The notes under the pieces: model-generated
Told to the model about the DNA's origin: nothing
What the model saw: the letters and a program-made list of their open reading frames with translations, nothing else
The model's database searches: none
In this document: in pieces, positions 2,752 through 56,508 of the stretch
Layout of the letters: every line of letters begins with the position of its first letter
How positions within the stretch are numbered: position 1 is the stretch's first letter
Translations under genes and position numbers: made by a program
Origin: Anaerolineaceae bacterium
Lineage (GTDB): Bacteria; Chloroflexota; Anaerolineae; Anaerolineales; Anaerolineaceae
Assembly (NCBI GenBank): GCA_029975475.1
Contig: JARKPB010000008.1
Coordinates: 558,001-622,000, forward strand
Length of the DNA stretch: 64,000 bases
Reading direction: 5' to 3'

Positions 2752-2833
2752 GGTGATCACCTGTAAATTGATTATACGGTGAGAACCATGCCAGCAAAAT
2801 TTTGTTTACAACCTTGCGCAGCGTCTGTCAGGC

Positions 2834-3604
2834 TCAGAATTTCCAGTTTCCCAGGGTAGGGATGGCTGTATACATGGTCAGGTCCAGCTGTATGGGGGTG
2901 ATTGACACGAAACCGTCTGCCAGGGCGCCCACGTCGGTGCCCGCTTCAGGCGTGCCGGTCGGTGAGTCGCCGCCGATCCAGTAATACGGCCTGCCGCGCG
3001 GATCGATGCGCTTATCCAGGCGATCGCGGTAAACCCTCAGTCCCTGTCGGGTGATTCGAAAACCCTTGATTTGCGCTTCAGGCAAATACGGAATATTGAC
3101 GTTTAACAAAGTTCCATCAGGAATTCCATTCTCAATGGCAGACTGAATGACCCTGCGGGCAATACTGGCAGCGGGGGTAAAATCCTGAATGTTTAGATGG
3201 TTTTCAACGGACCCAAGCGAGAATGCGATCCCCGGTGTATCCCAGATTAACGCTTCCATCGCGGCTGTAACCGTGCCGGAGTAGGTCACATCGTGGCCAA
3301 GATTTGGCAGCGGATTAATCCCGGAAACAACCAGGTCGATTTTTGTTTCAAAAAAGCCCAGCAAAGCCAGGGCTACGCAATCCGACGGCGCGCCGTCTGA
3401 GGCAAATGCCTGAATGCTGTCCGCGAGGATTGTTTCCTTGACCCTTAACGGGCGGTCCAGGGTTTTTACGTGACCGCCGCCAGACCAGTTTCGGTCGGGA
3501 GCGAGAATGCTGACTTTGGTATCCGGGATAGAACGCGCTGCCTGCGCCAAGGCCAATAACCCCTGGGCGGTAATCCCGTCATCATTGGTAACAAGAATGT
3601 GCAT
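2834..3604 (-). CDS. surE: 5'/3'-nucleotidase SurE
   Basis: 256 aa, normal SurE length. SurE is a metal-dependent nucleoside monophosphate phosphatase acting in the cytoplasm, linked to stationary-phase survival. The N-terminal MHILVTNDDGI carries the metal-binding Asp pair; VVSGINPLPNLGHDVTYSGTVTAAMEA is the conserved SGxNxG...YSGTVxAA block. It is on the same strand as the DUF255 gene about 80 bases downstream. It diverges from the acetyltransferase gene at 3769 across a 164-base spacer. Confidence 0.95.
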   Translation of the reverse strand: MHILVTNDDGITAQGLLALAQAARSIPDTKVSILAPDRNWSGGGHVKTLDRPLRVKETILADSIQAFASDGAPSDCVALALLGFFETKIDLVVSGINPLPNLGHDVTYSGTVTAAMEALIWDTPGIAFSLGSVENHLNIQDFTPAASIARRVIQSAIENGIPDGTLLNVNIPYLPEAQIKGFRITRQGLRVYRDRLDKRIDPRGRPYYWIGGDSPTGTPEAGTDVGALADGFVSITPIQLDLTMYTAIPTLGNWKF

Positions 3605-49831: not shown

Positions 49832-50224
49832 ATGGCACGAAAGAAGTTTACAGAAGATCAGATTGCGCAAATTCTTGTCGAAGCCGCTTATCGTGGTGAT
49901 CAAGAAGTGGCAAGTAAATACGGAATTAGTCAGCGCACGTTATACCGCTGGCGTGATTTTGCTGAAAATCGTCCCGGTTTGACGAAATTAATCCTTGAGA
50001 AAAAGGTGGCGTTTGAGCGCGGTTGGGCGGATGAGGCAGCTGGAGCACTGAAGGCGGGGCTTGAGTTTTTGAAGGAGGCAGCACAGAAGGCGAGCCGGAC
50101 GGATGCAAATGTCATTCACGCTGTGGCCGGGGCGGTAAAGATTGCCAGCGAAGTGTTGATTACACGTGAGGTACTGGATGCTCGACTCTCTGGACAGGAT
50201 CGAGAGGACGATACGCAGGATTGA
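49832..50224 (+). CDS. Terminase small subunit-like protein
   Basis: 130 aa. KFTEDQIAQILVEAAYRGDQEVASKYGISQRTLYRWRDFAEN is a helix-turn-helix typical of small terminases, followed by a helical oligomerisation part. It should bind the phage pac or cos site and hand DNA to the large subunit. AAAGGA at 49821 favours ATG 49832 over 49826. It overlaps the large subunit gene by 47 bases. Confidence 0.75.
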   Translation: MARKKFTEDQIAQILVEAAYRGDQEVASKYGISQRTLYRWRDFAENRPGLTKLILEKKVAFERGWADEAAGALKAGLEFLKEAAQKASRTDANVIHAVAGAVKIASEVLITREVLDARLSGQDREDDTQD

Positions 50225-52562
50225 ACGATGGATGCCGAAACAGGGGCCGTGCGTGGGGCAGATGGCGCTTGGCAACTGGCTCAAGGTAATCACGCCGGCG
50301 TATAACTGGGACTGGGCGTACCAGGTGTATCTGCGATCCGAGTTGGAACGGGTTGCAAACGGAGATACTAAACGCCTGATGGTGATGATGCCACCGCGCC
50401 ACGGGAAAACCGCAACCGTCACGGTGCGCTTTCCGGTGTGGTGGATGGAGCGGCAGCCAGGCTTGCGGGTGATTGTGTCGGCATATAACCAGACGCTGGC
50501 AAATAAGTTCAGCCGGATGAGCCGCAAACTGGCGCAGATGAGGCTGGGGTTGCGTGAAGACAGGCGCGCAGTTGAAGAGTGGGTTACTCAAACCAACTGC
50601 TGGTATCGCGCTGTTGGCGTTGGCGGCGGCATAACTGGCATGGGCGGTAATTGTTTGCCGGAAGGAACGTTGATTATCACAGATTCCGGTGATGTGCCTA
50701 TTGAAAAGCTAAATTTTTCTCACGGAGTATTATCTTATGACCACAACAGCCATAGATTTGAGTTTAAGAGAATCCAGGGTTTCAGTAGACGTGAAAGCAC
50801 TTGGCTATACCGGATTACCACTTTGTCTGGAAGAGTGGTTGAGGCTACGAGAGAACATCCTTTCTGGACGACAAGGGGATATGTCAAAGCGTCTGATGTT
50901 GCCCCCGGTGATATTTTATTGTGCGTGGTGCGGAAAGGAATTTGTGGTATCTGCGTTTGTGATGAACAAAAGCATCAAAAAGGGCTTTTCGGATCACTAT
51001 TGTTCAAGGCAATGTTCCGAAAAGCACCTTGCTGTGAAAAACAGACGTCGTTGCAAAATATGCGGAAGTCCGGTGGAGAAGAAAACAAGAGCGTATTGCG
51101 AGAATTGTCGTCCTTCCTACGCAGAGCGAAGAAAACCAATACATCCACCCAGACAAACAAAATGCCCGGTTTGCAGTTCTTTATTTCTCGCAAAATGGCG
51201 GGGTGGTGGAAAATATGCAAAGTATTGTTCGAAAAGGTGTTCGGAGGTTGCTCATTCAAGACTTATGTCTGGGAGTGGAAATCCGCAGTGGAAGCATGGA
51301 ATGACACCTCTCCGGCAGCAACCTCATTCTGCAAAAGCGTTCAGAAACATGAGAAAAAAGATTTTAGAGAGAGATGGGTATGTCTGTGTCATGTGTGGTT
51401 CGGCAGGAAAACTGCATGTTCATCACATAGACAATTATCCGATGAACAACACTTCCGCCAATTTAATTACCCTGTGTCCGAAATGCCATATATTGGCACA
51501 TTCACTGATGAATACACCTGCATATCAGAACCTGTTATTTCGGTGGAAGAATTATACAGACCTGCCCGTGTCTATGATATCCAAGTAGAGGATAATCATA
51601 ATTATTTTGCTAATGGAATCCTGGTGCATAACTGTATCATCATTGATGATCCGATCAAAAGTCGTGAAGAGGCGCAATCATTCACCTACCGTGAAAAAGT
51701 CTGGGACTGGTACACGAACGACCTGTACGCGCGCCTCGAGCCCGGAGGAGCGATGATCCTGGTCATGACTCGCTGGCATGAGGATGATCTAGCGGGCCGG
51801 ATACTGAGTAGCGAAGAGGGGGAAAACTGGCGCGTAGTGAGGATGCCGGCATTGGCTGAAGATGGGGATGTGCTGGGGCGGCGACCTGGCGAGGCTCTCA
51901 ATTCTGAACGTTATCCGGCAGAAGAGTTGCTCAAGATCAAGGCGGTGCTTGGATCGTGGGCGTTTGAGGCGCTTTACCAGCAGCGTCCGATGCCGGCAGA
52001 AGGGGGGATGTTCAAGCGGGAATGGTTCGGGAAGTTTGTAGATGCGGTCCCGGCGCAGGTGGAAGTGCGGGTGCGCTATTGGGACAAAGCGGCAACGGCT
52101 GACGATGGAGATTACACGGTTGGGGTGCGCATGAGCCGCACGTCTGATGGTTTGTTCTTTGTTGAGGATGTGACCCGTGGGCGGTGGTCCACCGGCGAGC
52201 GCGATAAAGTGATCAGACAGTGCGCCGAGACAGACCCACCCGGCACGGTGATTTGGATCGAGCAAGAGCCGGGATCGAGCGGCGTGGACAGCGTGCAAGC
52301 CCTGATCCGCATGCTGGCCGGGTATCCAGTGCATGCCGACCGCGTGACGGGTAGCAAGGCGGTGCGGGCCGAGCCATTTACGGCCCAAGCCGAGGCTGGT
52401 AATGTGGTGCTGGTCAAGGGGCACTGGAATGCGGTCTTCTTGGATGAACTCATGACGTTCCCGAATGGCGCGCATGATGATCAGGTGGACGCGGCGAGCG
52501 GAGCACTCAGTAAACTGGCGCTTCCGATGCGGGTGGAGTATGGTGAAAATCTCTGGAGGTGA
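50178..52562 (+). CDS. Terminase large subunit interrupted by an intein
   Basis: 794 aa precursor; about 467 aa after splicing. The motor has Walker A MPPRHGKT (residues 71-78) and Walker B CIIIDDPIKSREEA just after the intein. The nuclease half has RYWDKAATADDGDYTVGV, IWIEQEPGSSG and HDDQVDAAS as metal-binding Asp positions. The intein (residues 159-485) sits in GITGMGGN/CIIIDDP, directly before Walker B, so without splicing the ATPase cannot form. ATG 50178 has GTGAGG upstream; GTG 50166 is an alternative. It packages DNA through the portal. Confidence 0.9.
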   Translation: MLDSLDRIERTIRRIERWMPKQGPCVGQMALGNWLKVITPAYNWDWAYQVYLRSELERVANGDTKRLMVMMPPRHGKTATVTVRFPVWWMERQPGLRVIVSAYNQTLANKFSRMSRKLAQMRLGLREDRRAVEEWVTQTNCWYRAVGVGGGITGMGGNCLPEGTLIITDSGDVPIEKLNFSHGVLSYDHNSHRFEFKRIQGFSRRESTWLYRITTLSGRVVEATREHPFWTTRGYVKASDVAPGDILLCVVRKGICGICVCDEQKHQKGLFGSLLFKAMFRKAPCCEKQTSLQNMRKSGGEENKSVLRELSSFLRRAKKTNTSTQTNKMPGLQFFISRKMAGWWKICKVLFEKVFGGCSFKTYVWEWKSAVEAWNDTSPAATSFCKSVQKHEKKDFRERWVCLCHVWFGRKTACSSHRQLSDEQHFRQFNYPVSEMPYIGTFTDEYTCISEPVISVEELYRPARVYDIQVEDNHNYFANGILVHNCIIIDDPIKSREEAQSFTYREKVWDWYTNDLYARLEPGGAMILVMTRWHEDDLAGRILSSEEGENWRVVRMPALAEDGDVLGRRPGEALNSERYPAEELLKIKAVLGSWAFEALYQQRPMPAEGGMFKREWFGKFVDAVPAQVEVRVRYWDKAATADDGDYTVGVRMSRTSDGLFFVEDVTRGRWSTGERDKVIRQCAETDPPGTVIWIEQEPGSSGVDSVQALIRMLAGYPVHADRVTGSKAVRAEPFTAQAEAGNVVLVKGHWNAVFLDELMTFPNGAHDDQVDAASGALSKLALPMRVEYGENLWR
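50652..51632 (+). other. Intein in the large terminase (327 aa)
   Basis: Block A is CLPEGTLIITDSGDVPIEKL, block B is GRVVEATREHPFWTTRGYV with the conserved T..H, block F is ARVYDIQVEDNHNYFANGIL and block G is VHN followed by Cys. So Cys1, penultimate His, Asn and Cys+1 are all present and splicing should work. The stretch between blocks B and F shows no in-frame homing endonuclease motif; instead an HNH gene is read in the +1 frame (50881-51588). No TACTSAGTA copy lies inside. Confidence 0.9.
50881..51588 (+). CDS. HNH homing endonuclease overprinted in the +1 frame of the terminase intein
   Basis: 235 aa, entirely inside the intein but in another frame. Several Cys pairs form zinc ribbons (FYCAWCGKEF, RRCKICGS, YCENC, TKCPVCSS, YCSKRCS). 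SGSGNPQWKHGMTP is like the NUMOD3 DNA-binding motif. The nuclease is KKILERDGYVCVMCGSAGKLHVHHIDNYPMNNTSANLITLCPKCH, a standard HNH. ATG 50881 follows AAGGGGAT, a usable ribosome site. The longer in-frame start at 50737 lies in conserved intein sequence and looks accidental. Confidence 0.88.
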   Translation: MSKRLMLPPVIFYCAWCGKEFVVSAFVMNKSIKKGFSDHYCSRQCSEKHLAVKNRRRCKICGSPVEKKTRAYCENCRPSYAERRKPIHPPRQTKCPVCSSLFLAKWRGGGKYAKYCSKRCSEVAHSRLMSGSGNPQWKHGMTPLRQQPHSAKAFRNMRKKILERDGYVCVMCGSAGKLHVHHIDNYPMNNTSANLITLCPKCHILAHSLMNTPAYQNLLFRWKNYTDLPVSMISK

Positions 52563-52564
52563 AT

Positions 52565-53878
52565 ATGCTGCCAAATGCAATTTTCACAAGTTTGATTGAT
52601 GTTTTAGGCCGCGATGAGCAATCGCGAGTTGAGGTGATGCGCAAACGTTGGGAGACGTATTACGGTAATATTTCTCCGGCACTGAAGGTTAAGCCCGGCG
52701 CAGTAAATGACAACGTGCGGATCAACTACGCGCGGATGATTGTGGACAAGGGTATTTCGTTTCTGTTCGGTCAGGAAGTTGGCTTTGAGATCGATGAGAT
52801 CGAAGAGACGGAAGCTGAACAATGGCTGGATGCAGTATGGGCGCAGAACCGCAAGATGAGTTTGTTGCAGAATGCCGCGCTGGTTGGCGGCGTGACCGGG
52901 CATGTGTTCATCAAGATCGTTCCGGCGCAGTCATACCCGCGCCTGGTGGTGGTGGACTCGGAGACGGTGACAGTGAACCTGGCGCCGGATGACGCCCAGC
53001 AGATACTGAGTTACCAGATTTCGTACACGAGCCAAGACCCGAAAACCGGTAAACCGGTCGGCATCCGCCAGGTGATTGAGCGTGATGGGATGCGCTGGCG
53101 GATTGTGGACCAGGTAGGTAATTTGGAGCGGTTGACCTGGTCAACGGTCAACGAGGCCGTCTGGCCGTATGAGTTCAGCCCGATCGTGGACTGTCAGAAC
53201 CTTCCGGCGCCTGGCGAATTTTGGGGGCAGAGCGATCTGGAGGATGACGTGGTTGAGATTATTCGGGCGATCAATTTCATCGCGTCTAACACGGCGCGTA
53301 TCATCCGCTTTCATGCCCATCCAAAAACCTGGGGACGTGGGTTCGCGGCGAAAGATTTGCGCATCGGTATGGACGAGACAATCATCCTGCCTGGAGAAAA
53401 TGCAGAGCTGCGTAATCTGGAAATGCAGAGCGATTTAGCCTCCAGTCTGCGCTATCTGGATATACTGCGCCAGGCGCTGCATGAGATAAGCCGCGTGCCG
53501 GAGGTGGCAACGGGCAATCTAGATCGGGCGGGCGCACTGTCGGGCCTGGCGCTTCAAATTCTGTACCAGCCACTTTTGGAAAAGACAAACACGAAGCGTC
53601 TGCTGTATGGGGACATGCTGGTAGAGCTCAATCGTCGTCTGCTGGCAATCGGCGGGTTTGGCGATGCCCTGTACACTGCACTCCACTGGCAGGAGATGTT
53701 GCCACAAGATCCGATGCAGGAACGGCAGGCGGCGTTGATTGATCTGCAATTGGGCGTGAGCCTGGATACGCTATTGCAACGGCTGGGGTATGATCCCGAT
53801 CTGGAACGGCAGAAGCGGGAGGCAGCCAGTGCTGAGATTGGAGAGCAGATACTCACTGCCTTTGACCGAGGTCAGTAA
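52565..53878 (+). CDS. Phage portal protein, SPP1 gp6-like
   Basis: 437 aa. The N-terminal ETYYGNISPALKVKPGAVNDNVRINYARMIVDKGISFLFGQEVGFE and the C-terminal EISRVPEVATGNLDRAGALSGLALQILYQPLLEKTNTKRLLYGDML match the SPP1 Gp6 portal family. It forms the dodecameric ring at one capsid vertex. GGAGG at 52555 supports ATG 52565. The stop overlaps the next ATG by one base. Near copies of the palindrome lie at 53004 and at 52504 in the previous gene. Confidence 0.9.
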   Translation: MLPNAIFTSLIDVLGRDEQSRVEVMRKRWETYYGNISPALKVKPGAVNDNVRINYARMIVDKGISFLFGQEVGFEIDEIEETEAEQWLDAVWAQNRKMSLLQNAALVGGVTGHVFIKIVPAQSYPRLVVVDSETVTVNLAPDDAQQILSYQISYTSQDPKTGKPVGIRQVIERDGMRWRIVDQVGNLERLTWSTVNEAVWPYEFSPIVDCQNLPAPGEFWGQSDLEDDVVEIIRAINFIASNTARIIRFHAHPKTWGRGFAAKDLRIGMDETIILPGENAELRNLEMQSDLASSLRYLDILRQALHEISRVPEVATGNLDRAGALSGLALQILYQPLLEKTNTKRLLYGDMLVELNRRLLAIGGFGDALYTALHWQEMLPQDPMQERQAALIDLQLGVSLDTLLQRLGYDPDLERQKREAASAEIGEQILTAFDRGQ

Positions 53879-56508
53879 TGCCTGAAGGCGAGATTTACGA
53901 AGCAATCGAGCGCTTCCGGCGGGAACTGCTGCGGCGGGAGCGCAAAGCTGCGAGCGAGATGGTGCGCGTGTATGGCGAGGCGTGGAAGCGCATTAAGGCA
54001 GAACTAGAGCGCCTTCATACTGAGTACGAAGCGACGAAAGCGCGCGGAGAGAAGCCGGGGCCTGACTGGATTTACCAGTTCAATCGGGCGCGGGCTTTTC
54101 GGGATCAGGTGGAACGGGAACTGCTGGCGTTTGCCCAGTATGCTGAGAACCAGGTGCGCGAACAGCAGCGTGACGCTATTGAGGCAGCGGAACGGCGTGC
54201 GGAGGAGTTGACCCGGCGTGCTCTGGGGAATCCACCGGCAGGATTGGTGATTGACTGGAACCGGATTGATACCAGTGCGGTTGAAACGTTGCTGGGGGTG
54301 ACGCAGGCAGACAGTCCGCTGCACCGGCTGTTAGTGAGTATCTCAACGGAGGGGGCGCAGGCGGCGGAAGATGCGCTGTTTCAGGGAATGCTGCTGGGGC
54401 AGAATCCGCGCGAGGTGGCGCGGGAGATGCGGCGCGCGCTTGGCGTGACGTTGAGCCGCGCTTTGACGATTGCGCGGACTGAGACGCTGCGCGCCCACCG
54501 CGAGGCGACCCGCGCCAGTTACCAGGCGAACAACGATATTGTGACGGGCTGGATATGGCACAGCGCAACCGATGAGCGGACGTGCGCGGCGTGCTGGGCA
54601 ATGCACGGGACTGAACATAAGGTTGATGAGATACTGGATGATCATCCCAACGGCAGATGTTTAACTCCGGGTACTGTTGTTTCCGGCCCGCTCGCTACCG
54701 CCCTCGTAACCAGATACTACGAAGGTGATGTTATCACTATCAGCACTTCCTTTGGCAAGTTCCTTACCGTCACCCCGAATCACCCTGTATTGACCAACAG
54801 AGGTTGGGTTGCTGCTAATCTCTTGAAGAAAGGTGACTATGTAGTCAGCGGCGGAGGGGGAAATTGGACTTCTTCTGGCGTGTGTCCAGATGACTATCAG
54901 ATGCCAACCGTGATTGAGGATATACAGCGCTCTTTGAATATGACCAGGTTTTTCACGATGCCAACTGCCCCCGAAGATTTCCACGGCGACGGGGTAGGAA
55001 GCGATGTCCACGTTATATATTCCAATCGCTTTTTGCGGAGTTACCTCCAACCCTCTTTCAACAAGCCATTCCACGAGCATGATTTCTGCTTGAGAGCGCC
55101 CGAGGGCTTTTTGTTCTCTGGTGATAGCACGCCTGACTTTTTCTTCTTCAGGGACAATTCTTCCTCTGACACTATTTTGGGCGATTTTTATTCTTCTCAA
55201 ATGTTCTTCTGCAGGGGTAGTTTGTGCAAGCAGGCGGTTGGCGCTTACCTGGTCTCTGATTTCGATATGATTGGCAACCAATCTTGCTCTGATTGCACTT
55301 CTCGATACCCCAAAAGATTTGGCAAGAGCGTTTTCAGATTCGCCGCTTGTGTATCGCCTGATAATTTCTTCGTCGGGAAGACCGAGGTAGATTCTTCTGG
55401 TTTTTCCCGCCTTCTCTCCGATAATTTTGTAACGGAGGACTTTGTCACGGAACAACCCATGAGTCTTGAGATAATTTCTGAGGCGCTCTTCAGAAGTGTG
55501 GCATATGGCAGCAGCGTCTTGCGCGCTGTAGCCAGAAATGTAAAGTTCGACCGCGTGACGGAAGTCAGTATCACTCGCTTTACTGGGCATGTTTATAATC
55601 TCCAAACAATGTCAGGATGGTATATCGCTAATGGGATTATAACGCACAATTGCGCGATGATACCCAAAACACGCACCTGGGCAGAAATTGGGAAGCAGTA
55701 TGGAATTGACCTGTCTGATGTGCCGGATACTAATCCTGAGATTGAGCCTGGCGTTTCGCTGTTTGAGCGCCTGCCGGCAGAGAAGCAGATCAAGATTTTG
55801 GGACCGGCGAAGTATGCTGCATGGAAGGAAGGCGAGTTTTCGCTAAGTGACATTGTTGGGCGGTCCAGGTCGAAAGAGTGGGGAACCCACCGGTTTGAGA
55901 AGAGCCTGGCGGCGTTGCTGGGCGCAGAAAAGGCGAAGGGGTATACGCGCCTGGCGCTGATGGGGGTAGCGAGGAAAGCAGGTCAATACTCAGTAGACGA
56001 TTTGATTCGAGTGGCTGGATTGGGATTGCGCGAGTTGACGCCAGAGGAATTGAAAAGGATTGTTCAGCATGTGGCTAAGGCTGGATTTGACCCGAATGGT
56101 TTGGAAAAGTGTGGCGGGCGGCTCGCCGGGTTGGTTTGGAATGGGAAAACGTTAAAGGGAAACGATACGCTTCCACCTGGTGAAGCGCATTATTTACGGC
56201 ATGTGGTGAAACGGCATGAATGGCCTGCAAATACAACGCTGAATGAATATTATCAGAGTTTGCGAGAAGTAATTGAAGACGAGAATTCGGGTATTGTTGT
56301 TCATAAAATTGGATCAGAATGGCAAGTTGGATTTTTGAATACATCATCTGAATGGAGAGGTCTGGCTGGTAATGATATAATATTTGTGGATTATCGCCTA
56401 TCAATTTCTTATTGGGTGACGGGATATCAGCCGGACGATTTTGAGAGTCTATTGGCAAGTTCAAAATGGAGCAATATAAAATGGTTACGGCCTTTCAAGA
56501 TCAGATAG
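53878..56508 (+). CDS. Head morphogenesis protein (SPP1 gp7/Mu gpF-like) with intein and a toxin-like C-terminal domain
   Basis: 876 aa precursor, about 545 aa after splicing. The N-terminal half is a coiled-coil structural part. The Mu-F domain has RTETLRAHREATRASYQANNDIVTGWIWHSATDERTCAACWAMHG and DHPNGR/CAMIPKTRTW around the intein (residues 261-591). After about residue 690 (HVAKAGFDPN...) comes an unrelated C-terminal part (HYLRHVVKRHEWPANTTLNEYYQSL...DDFESLLASSKWSNIKWLRPF) that reads like a small nuclease-type toxin and is AT-richer than its neighbours. A small gene overlaps its end. The toxin reading is uncertain. Confidence 0.8.
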   Translation: MPEGEIYEAIERFRRELLRRERKAASEMVRVYGEAWKRIKAELERLHTEYEATKARGEKPGPDWIYQFNRARAFRDQVERELLAFAQYAENQVREQQRDAIEAAERRAEELTRRALGNPPAGLVIDWNRIDTSAVETLLGVTQADSPLHRLLVSISTEGAQAAEDALFQGMLLGQNPREVAREMRRALGVTLSRALTIARTETLRAHREATRASYQANNDIVTGWIWHSATDERTCAACWAMHGTEHKVDEILDDHPNGRCLTPGTVVSGPLATALVTRYYEGDVITISTSFGKFLTVTPNHPVLTNRGWVAANLLKKGDYVVSGGGGNWTSSGVCPDDYQMPTVIEDIQRSLNMTRFFTMPTAPEDFHGDGVGSDVHVIYSNRFLRSYLQPSFNKPFHEHDFCLRAPEGFLFSGDSTPDFFFFRDNSSSDTILGDFYSSQMFFCRGSLCKQAVGAYLVSDFDMIGNQSCSDCTSRYPKRFGKSVFRFAACVSPDNFFVGKTEVDSSGFSRLLSDNFVTEDFVTEQPMSLEIISEALFRSVAYGSSVLRAVARNVKFDRVTEVSITRFTGHVYNLQTMSGWYIANGIITHNCAMIPKTRTWAEIGKQYGIDLSDVPDTNPEIEPGVSLFERLPAEKQIKILGPAKYAAWKEGEFSLSDIVGRSRSKEWGTHRFEKSLAALLGAEKAKGYTRLALMGVARKAGQYSVDDLIRVAGLGLRELTPEELKRIVQHVAKAGFDPNGLEKCGGRLAGLVWNGKTLKGNDTLPPGEAHYLRHVVKRHEWPANTTLNEYYQSLREVIEDENSGIVVHKIGSEWQVGFLNTSSEWRGLAGNDIIFVDYRLSISYWVTGYQPDDFESLLASSKWSNIKWLRPFKIR
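54658..55650 (+). other. Intein in the head morphogenesis protein (331 aa)
   Basis: Block A begins CLTPGTVVSGPLATALVTRY, block B is FLTVTPNHPVLTNRGWVAANLLKKGDYVV, block F is GHVYNLQTMSGWYIANGI and block G is THN followed by Cys. All splicing residues are present. The middle stretch is odd (runs such as FFFF and SSS) because the opposite strand codes for a homing endonuclease across almost the whole intein. The insertion splits the conserved HPNGR-C motif. No TACTSAGTA copy lies inside. Confidence 0.9.
54661..55590 (-). CDS. Vsr-like homing endonuclease on the antisense strand of the head-protein intein
   Basis: 309 aa. Two helix-turn-helix repeats (VELYISGYSAQDAAAICHTSEERLRNYL; IIRRYTSGESENALAKSFGVSRSAIRARL) precede a nuclease fold: AEIMLVEWLVERGLEVTPQKAIGIYNVDIASYPVAVEIFGGSWHREKPGHIQRALYILNHGWHLIVIW. 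The D...E...H layout is that of Vsr-type enzymes, a fold used by the EDxHD homing endonucleases. GGAG lies nine bases before ATG 55590; a TTG at 55605 is possible. The stop codon directly abuts the intein's first codon. Its codons are in exact register with the intein codons on the other strand. Confidence 0.85.
   Translation of the reverse strand: MPSKASDTDFRHAVELYISGYSAQDAAAICHTSEERLRNYLKTHGLFRDKVLRYKIIGEKAGKTRRIYLGLPDEEIIRRYTSGESENALAKSFGVSRSAIRARLVANHIEIRDQVSANRLLAQTTPAEEHLRRIKIAQNSVRGRIVPEEEKVRRAITREQKALGRSQAEIMLVEWLVERGLEVTPQKAIGIYNVDIASYPVAVEIFGGSWHREKPGHIQRALYILNHGWHLIVIWTHARRSPISPSAADYIVTFLQEISSNPTSVGQYRVIRGDGKELAKGSADSDNITFVVSGYEGGSERAGNNSTRS

Follow-up and report, generated by a model that had tools for sequence, protein, structure and literature searches.

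Can an endonuclease gene reside in an intein without being part of the intein protein? This question is raised by a terminase gene, terL, of an Anaerolineaceae bacterium (NCBI GenBank assembly GCA_029975475.1, contig JARKPB010000008.1), located in a stretch of 64,000 nucleotides (positions 558,001 to 622,000 of the forward strand) which was analyzed at its full length and is called the window here. An original prediction made from the letters alone described an intein in this terminase and an HNH endonuclease gene overprinted on it in the +1 frame. We examined this locus and its relatives and consider it very likely that they represent a composite homing element, in which TerL carries a mini-intein at its Walker B site and the linker DNA of this mini-intein houses a +1 HNH gene, with the separately translated HNH protein driving homing.

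Organization of the terminase locus

TerL and its intein are encoded in one continuous frame which contains the following features (positions in the window):

50166 to 52562, plus strand: terL with in-frame intein, a single open frame of 798 amino acids with a putative start codon (Pfam; PHROG 38, E = 8e-90)
50652 to 51632, plus strand: intein of 327 amino acids directly 5' of Walker B (N/CIIIDDP; Pfam, empty-site alignment)
50652 to 50921, plus strand: N-terminal half of the splicing domain, residues 1-90, with Cys1 and block B TREH, His codon at 50856 (confident AlphaFold blocks, motif counts in relatives)
50922 to 51512, plus strand: in-frame linker, about residues 91-287 (low-confidence model, no endonuclease domain in the intein frame)
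51513 to 51632, plus strand: C-terminal part of the splicing domain, residues 288-327, with blocks F and G and the HN end
50881 to 51588, plus strand: overprinted HNH endonuclease gene in the +1 frame, 235 amino acids plus stop (open reading frame (ORF), HNH PF01844, PHROG 1271, codon permutation)
51385 to 51501, plus strand: HNH domain, residues 168-206 counted from 50884 (Pfam; invariant Cys and His columns)
50873 to 50878, plus strand: weak Shine-Dalgarno-like AAGGGG, 2 bases 5' of ATG 50881 (sequence; not conserved in relatives)

The TerL frame matched the Pfam families Intein_splicing (E = 3e-16, above the family cutoff), Terminase_6N (E = 5e-10) and Terminase_6C (E = 3e-14). The intein extends from Cys1 to GILVHN and is followed by Cys; as predicted, its frame stays open for 327 codons and, between blocks B and F, shows no endonuclease motif, the only matches being to splicing-domain families. 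The predicted HNH protein of 235 amino acids was likewise recovered in the +1 frame, from ATG 50881 to the stop codon at 51586-51588, and its product matched HNH PF01844 (E = 6e-5) and PHROG 1271 (E = 1.8e-28). A NUMOD3-like motif had also been proposed; Pfam gave no match to NUMOD3.

Three known types of insertion were ruled out. A canonical endonuclease-bearing intein would carry the nuclease in the intein frame, which here contains splicing-domain families only, with the HNH in +1. A split intein or fractured gene does not apply to a host which is one continuous frame from 50166 to 52562. For a group I intron with an ORF, a ribozyme would be expected; an Rfam search of the window gave no family at gathering score, and the insert leaves the host frame uninterrupted.

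Occurrence of the pair in other loci

The same pair of intein and HNH gene, which the original prediction had proposed to seek in other terminases, was found in the same phase and at the same site in 54 distinct loci, the window included. These loci span Gordonia and Synechococcus phages, Streptomyces plasmids, a Planctomycetaceae metagenome-assembled genome (MAG) and viral contigs. A tblastn search of phages with the HNH protein gave 18 records; the best two distinct ones were Gordonia phage Clown and Synechococcus phage S-EIVl, where the HNH lies in the +1 frame within annotated terminases and no separate HNH is annotated. Viral contigs were scanned with a three-sequence alignment, and the best 80 of 157 relatives were taken; a scan with a single sequence had found no relative, and a 19-row alignment was too diverse as scan query. 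In 55 of these 80 loci the HNH match lay, in constant phase, within an open frame of 503-1253 amino acids; the remaining 25 carried an HNH without covering frame (free-standing). The 55 loci, Clown, S-EIVl and the window make 58 loci, in which Clown is counted twice and of which 43 have a distinct HNH. Eleven further loci comprise two Streptomyces plasmids, one MAG and eight viral contigs. Four Streptomyces plasmids were matched and two examined, both with the pair. A first scan of genome contigs returned no relative; among the best 80 of 107 loci of a second one, a single locus (L113, a MAG) was identified as an overprinted TerL intein. One row was left out (L322, a fragment). For comparative work, 13 near-duplicates and L014, the 5' end of which is cut, were removed from the 54, leaving a set of 40 loci.

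The hosts were read as TerL; wherever the contig extends that far, their intein lies directly 5' of Walker B. Pfam was run on four hosts, of which L200 gave the intein and no terminase family; L056, L200 and L203 were called TerL on Walker B context only.

Some loci showed further peculiarities. In the gene tables of the Streptomyces plasmids L111 and L112 the HNH is listed as a coding sequence and TerL only as its C-terminal part, the overlapping terminase being annotated short. L006 contains a second intein-like start (CMVGDTSVMLPDG...) downstream of 2710 in the same TerL, possibly indicating two inteins per terminase. L349, from another genus of the same family, encodes an intein C-end plus a TerL C-extein 79% identical to that of the window; its contig ends within the element, and the upstream frames contain stops.

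Integrity of the intein

In the 40 loci, the window included, Cys1 and the last Asn are present in all inteins, block B reads T..H in 39 and S..H in one, and the residue after the intein is Cys in 38 and Ser in two. The window intein has C1, TREH and N327, followed by the +1 Cys. Intein lengths range from 288 to 385 amino acids, and Intein_splicing matched all 33 inteins tested at E up to 0.01. Inteins of a cyanophage-type group (L004, L018-L055), which account for 15 of the 40, end in LN, SN, AN or GN, as compared to HN, and their last splicing step may differ.

In the AlphaFold model of the window intein, residues 1-90 and about 291-327 are confident (block means 94-98), with an overall mean of 68. 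Confidence in the linker falls below 50 in residues 98-138, 190-234 and most of 244-284 and is intermediate elsewhere. The model superimposed on the Mtu RecA mini-intein with Z 22.4 and rmsd 1.5 over 134 residues. Furthermore, two intein-free TerLs (196 and 189 of 405 aligned residues identical) cross the insertion site free of gaps. With its HINT fold and its precise insertion in a conserved site between intact exteins, the element is an intein. The TerL precursor would be expected to splice.

The HNH protein is also well conserved: H180, H181 and N193 are invariant in the alignment, and the Cys and His columns show little or no variation. The source genome contains one full copy plus one short match of 42%. 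The HNH profile had matches in 45 of 61 genomes of relatives; apart from the window's gene, these matches are partial and nearly all comprise the HNH core.

Selection on two frames

The synonymous codons of each distinct HNH gene were permuted 2000 times within the gene, and stops in the partner frame were counted; L008 was excluded. Within the HNH region of the window the TerL frame has no stop and the third frame 14, and the shuffles gave a mean of 13.4 TerL-frame stops with no stop-free shuffle among 2000. Host-frame stops were zero in all 42 testable genes as compared to a mean of 8.5 expected; since an open host frame was the criterion for entering the overprinted set, the information lies in how many stops are expected, in the third frame and in the controls. 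The fraction of stop-free shuffles was highest for Clown (0.037) and at most 0.009 for all others. The third frame of the 42 genes showed no depletion, with 403 stops vs 347 expected. Among the free-standing HNH genes 23 of 25 were testable, and 22 of these 23 were near expectation. L076, counted as free-standing, has one host-phase stop vs 6.3 expected and is possibly a recently decayed overprint.

In 11 disjoint pairs of loci, third positions of HNH codons, which are first positions in the host frame, accounted for 454 of 702 substitutions. HNH-synonymous changes occurred at rates per opportunity of 0.179 when the host residue was changed and 0.147 when it was unchanged; the rates of HNH-altering changes were 0.033 and 0.022, and that of changes synonymous in the HNH and creating a host stop was 0.038, where the 21 underlying cells arise from scoring single changes on one background, the host frames being stop-free. 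HNH-synonymous changes are thus equally common with or without a host change, and HNH-altering and host-stop-making ones are rare; therefore, selection acts on the HNH protein, and the in-frame linker is constrained only to stay open. The TerL frame of L008 is open, and its HNH contains a nonsense codon, the picture that a homing gene in decay would present.

Origin and mobility

In a tree of 63 HNH proteins, 36 of the 40 TerL-intein members form one clade (100/98), and L028 and the group L056/L200/L203 fall among free-standing genes. The starred branches of this tree force at least three changes, compatible with one gain and two losses. The 54 loci therefore do not stand for as many independent events. 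The HNH and the splicing domain have correlated pairwise distances (rho 0.66; 0 of 999 permutations). Compared with the extein, identity was higher for the HNH in 687 of 780 pairs and for the intein in 671 of 780; between the window and L006, identity was 54% for the HNH, 46% for the intein and 26% for the extein. These values fit a composite that would move as a unit atop much vertical descent.

A model for the composite element and its alternatives

The proposed element would function as follows. A ribosome on the TerL frame would yield a precursor with the intein, the ends of which would fold around a passive linker, excise the intein and ligate the two parts of TerL. Internal to the intein, translation would start a second time, putatively at ATG 50881 in the window, and yield a free zinc-ribbon HNH endonuclease which would cut intein-less terL near Walker B, and repair would copy the intein plus the nested gene into the cut terL. 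TerL is presumably essential; therefore, selection would purge stops from its frame, a demand that the HNH gene could meet via synonymous codon choice alone, its phase always permitting this.

Several observations weigh against this model. For both the HNH and the intein, distances also follow those of the extein, with rho of 0.67 and 0.75, respectively, and 0 of 999 permutations in either case, and much of the spread may be vertical. The penultimate His is found in 25 of 40 inteins and absent in 15. The AlphaFold model of the HNH protein reached a pTM of 0.40, and a Foldseek search with it gave 147 matches at E up to 10, none of them at E ≤0.001; furthermore, HNH-family membership is by itself no demonstration of site-specific homing. 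The best Foldseek matches were ScoMcrA and EcoKMcrA and were not used to assign a subfamily. Finally, the translation start varies. The HNH had been predicted to possess its own ribosome site, and the weak AAGGGG does lie 2 bases before the ATG in the window; start and site are not conserved among relatives. L003, L006, L012, L013, L197 and L198 have an ATG at the same position as the window, and the aligned codon is ACA or ACG in L005, L008, L009, L193 and L194. Candidate starts vary in the cyanophage-type group (GTG vs non-start codons), and in the L031 group of close contigs no ATG, GTG or TTG was found between -30 and +100 relative to the His codon of block B.

Such variation brings up the possibility that the HNH is made as a fusion by programmed +1 frameshifting from the TerL or N-intein frame. 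The phase suits a +1 shift, some members have no nearby start codon, and upstream of block B the HNH frame has slightly fewer stops than expected in 42 loci (91 vs 119; third frame 247 vs 253). However, this deficit is slight beside the 0 vs 8.5 per gene downstream, and in L056, L200 and L203 the HNH frame is closed by stops immediately upstream of the HNH and has an ATG where the domain begins; internal initiation is therefore favoured in these three, and, judged by stop counts and start codons, with no search made for a slippery site, we regard frameshifting as unlikely. A different kind of frameshift, namely an assembly or sequencing error splitting one in-frame intein-HNH protein, had been named with the original prediction as its possible undoing. 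At a single locus two compensating shifts would look alike; across the relatives, the same error would be needed in dozens of separate assemblies, as the phase is identical in 54 distinct loci including finished phage genomes and plasmids. Moreover, the HNH gene overlaps the end of block B, hence the overlap is real coding in both frames, and the probability of such an artefact is negligible.

It is just as hard to believe that the host frame is open by chance and only the HNH gene matters. This might be argued for the very GC-rich Clown, where 3.7% of shuffles are free of host-frame stops, but the window, with its 13.4 expected stops, gave no such shuffle among 2000, the other 41 genes stayed within the fractions given above, and synonymous changes that would create a host stop are 4.6-fold less frequent than other synonymous ones. 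Nor does the HNH appear to be a dead remnant. The nonsense codon of L008 would agree with decay, but 42 of 43 distinct HNH genes are stop-free over the match, HNH-altering changes are about fivefold rarer than synonymous ones, and the conserved Cys and His columns are retained, so that this explanation is extremely improbable. Slightly more can be said for a role of the HNH in DNA packaging, as its gene sits in terL and HNH proteins near terminases aid packaging according to work cited in PMC11855218 and PMC12613952. However, the HNH tracks the intein and not TerL generally, HNH and intein being more alike than the extein in most pairs; one member bears a nonsense codon, and relatives are free-standing in 25 of 80 loci. 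A packaging function is thus very improbable, and the composite homing element is preferred.

Other overprinted nucleases

The window contains a second case about three kb away:

53878 to 56508, plus strand: MuF-like protein with intein (residues 274-591 match Intein_splicing)
54661 to 55605, minus strand: antisense nuclease ORF inside the MuF intein (HTH domains plus a weak MTES_1575 match)

This nuclease matched 124 phage records. Seven loci were examined, and in six of them (window, Malisha, Fosterous, Aaphi23, Vibrio H2 and Cronobacter ES2) the nuclease is antisense, in the same phase, within a MuF-like or VG15 gene with an intein match, where the Intein_splicing scores of the five relatives (23.7-28.5) are below the Pfam cutoff of 35.8 and that of the window is above it. 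These six have no host stop as compared to 7-31 stops in the other antisense frames; the seventh, L109, is without the overprinted arrangement. Own-codon permutation is uninformative for the antisense pair because TTA, CTA and TCA are absent altogether, hence their counts were compared with equal codon use: none occurs in the six overprinted nucleases (8.5-12.2 expected) and 12 occur in L109 (9.2 expected).

Five other intein hosts (L350-L354) were inspected, and an overprinted nuclease was recognised only in Vibrio phage 1.088.O (L353), the one record examined out of 29 Vibrio records matching an N-intein query. Within the interval 2093-4795 of L353, its helicase intein harbors a +1 ORF of 256 codons (2775-3542) encoding a zinc-ribbon DUF559 nuclease (E = 6e-12); the host frame contains 0 stops vs 13.4 expected and the third frame 21 vs 21.4. 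No overprinted nuclease was recognised in the Xanthomonas FoX3 intein host and no endonuclease was seen in those of vir335 and Mvi-JY20; the cr118_1 terminase intein contains an in-frame endonuclease of LAGLIDADG look, judged by eye. In L202, L223, L236, L242 and L257, HNH genes are overprinted in C5 cytosine methyltransferase frames (L202 and L242 by Pfam, the others by eye) with no intein seen, resembling the ShiLan insert described below.

The notion that endonuclease genes invade mini-inteins out of frame and that the host frame is kept open is thus supported by the 54 +1 loci, the 42 stop-free host frames and six of seven antisense loci. A single lineage, as originally suggested, is contradicted: the two nucleases of the window match different families, and the TerL HNH occupies three places in the HNH tree.

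Phases that permit overprinting

All synonymous codings of a protein were searched by dynamic programming, and unavoidable stops in the partner frame were counted. For the 40 HNH proteins the observed sense phase gave zero unavoidable stops in every case and the other sense phase at least one in every case (mean 2.1). The codon-register antisense phase gave zero in 40 of 40, and in the other two antisense phases all stops were avoidable in 7 and 8 of 40 proteins. The calculation was extended to seven more nucleases, namely the six antisense ones and the L353 nuclease: the observed sense phase and the codon-register antisense phase gave zero in 7 of 7 and the others in 1, 4 and 2 of 7. The MuF antisense nuclease occupies exactly the codon-register antisense phase. 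Hence, the phases seen in inteins are the two that can be coded without a partner-frame stop for all 47 proteins tested.

Some observations run counter to this rule: the L202 HNH lies in the other sense phase, inside a methylase without intein; the ShiLan HNH is likewise in the third frame, as described in PMC11855218; and the antisense nuclease of the window could reach zero stops in two further phases. On balance, overprinting is probably a general and recurrent way of lodging endonuclease genes in inteins, its phase being set by the genetic code, of which one sense and one antisense phase let any protein keep its partner open synonymously. At least three arrangements belong here: the HNH in +1 in TerL, the HTH/MTES-like nuclease antisense in MuF and the DUF559 nuclease in +1 in the Vibrio phage helicase.

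If this is correct, splicing and homing are performed by two separate proteins from the same bases, and the endonuclease can evolve or decay without harm to the host gene. Apparent mini-inteins with a featureless linker, annotated as plain terminases as in Clown and S-EIVl, can conceal a complete conserved nuclease gene, which bears on how such inteins persist and spread and how new endonucleases enter inteins. The system would also be an unusually clean case of overlapping genes, with one frame under protein-level selection and the other needing only to be open, and any intein linker in the databases offers a test of the phase rule.

Comparison with known systems

A literature search gave no recognised account of an endonuclease encoded out of frame in an intein; Gorbalenya 1998 ('Non-canonical inteins') and the Gosselin 2025 preprint on actinobacteriophage inteins, both cited for overlapping reading frames in actinobacteriophages in PMC11855218, may describe something alike.

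Canonical inteins such as PI-SceI or, according to an excerpt of PMC6293099, the dCTP deaminase intein of cyanophage CL131 also carry an endonuclease between blocks B and F, but in the TerL case it is in another frame and outside the intein protein. Mini-inteins (the Mtu RecA splicing domain, Spl DnaX, Ssp DnaB) share the splicing-domain fold and motifs; the TerL intein differs in its linker of about 190 amino acids, the DNA of which codes for a second protein. Phage HNH endonucleases that are free-standing or reside in group I introns (PMC3706429 and PMC3428280, in excerpt) have the HNH core and zinc ribbons in common with the TerL HNH, which differs from them in having no Rfam match and in being nested in an intein gene with an open frame. 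The closest likeness is to the ShiLan domain and the Pacc40 insertion, out-of-frame HNH inserts in phage DNA methylases: as far as the consulted sections of PMC11855218 describe them, a zinc-finger HNH is hidden in another frame of an open host gene and is patchily distributed. The same sections report that no splicing domain was detected and that the insert presumably stays in the protein; the host is a methylase and the HNH lies in the third frame. In contrast, the HNH described here is surrounded by a full splicing domain, its host is TerL, and it is read in the +1 frame.

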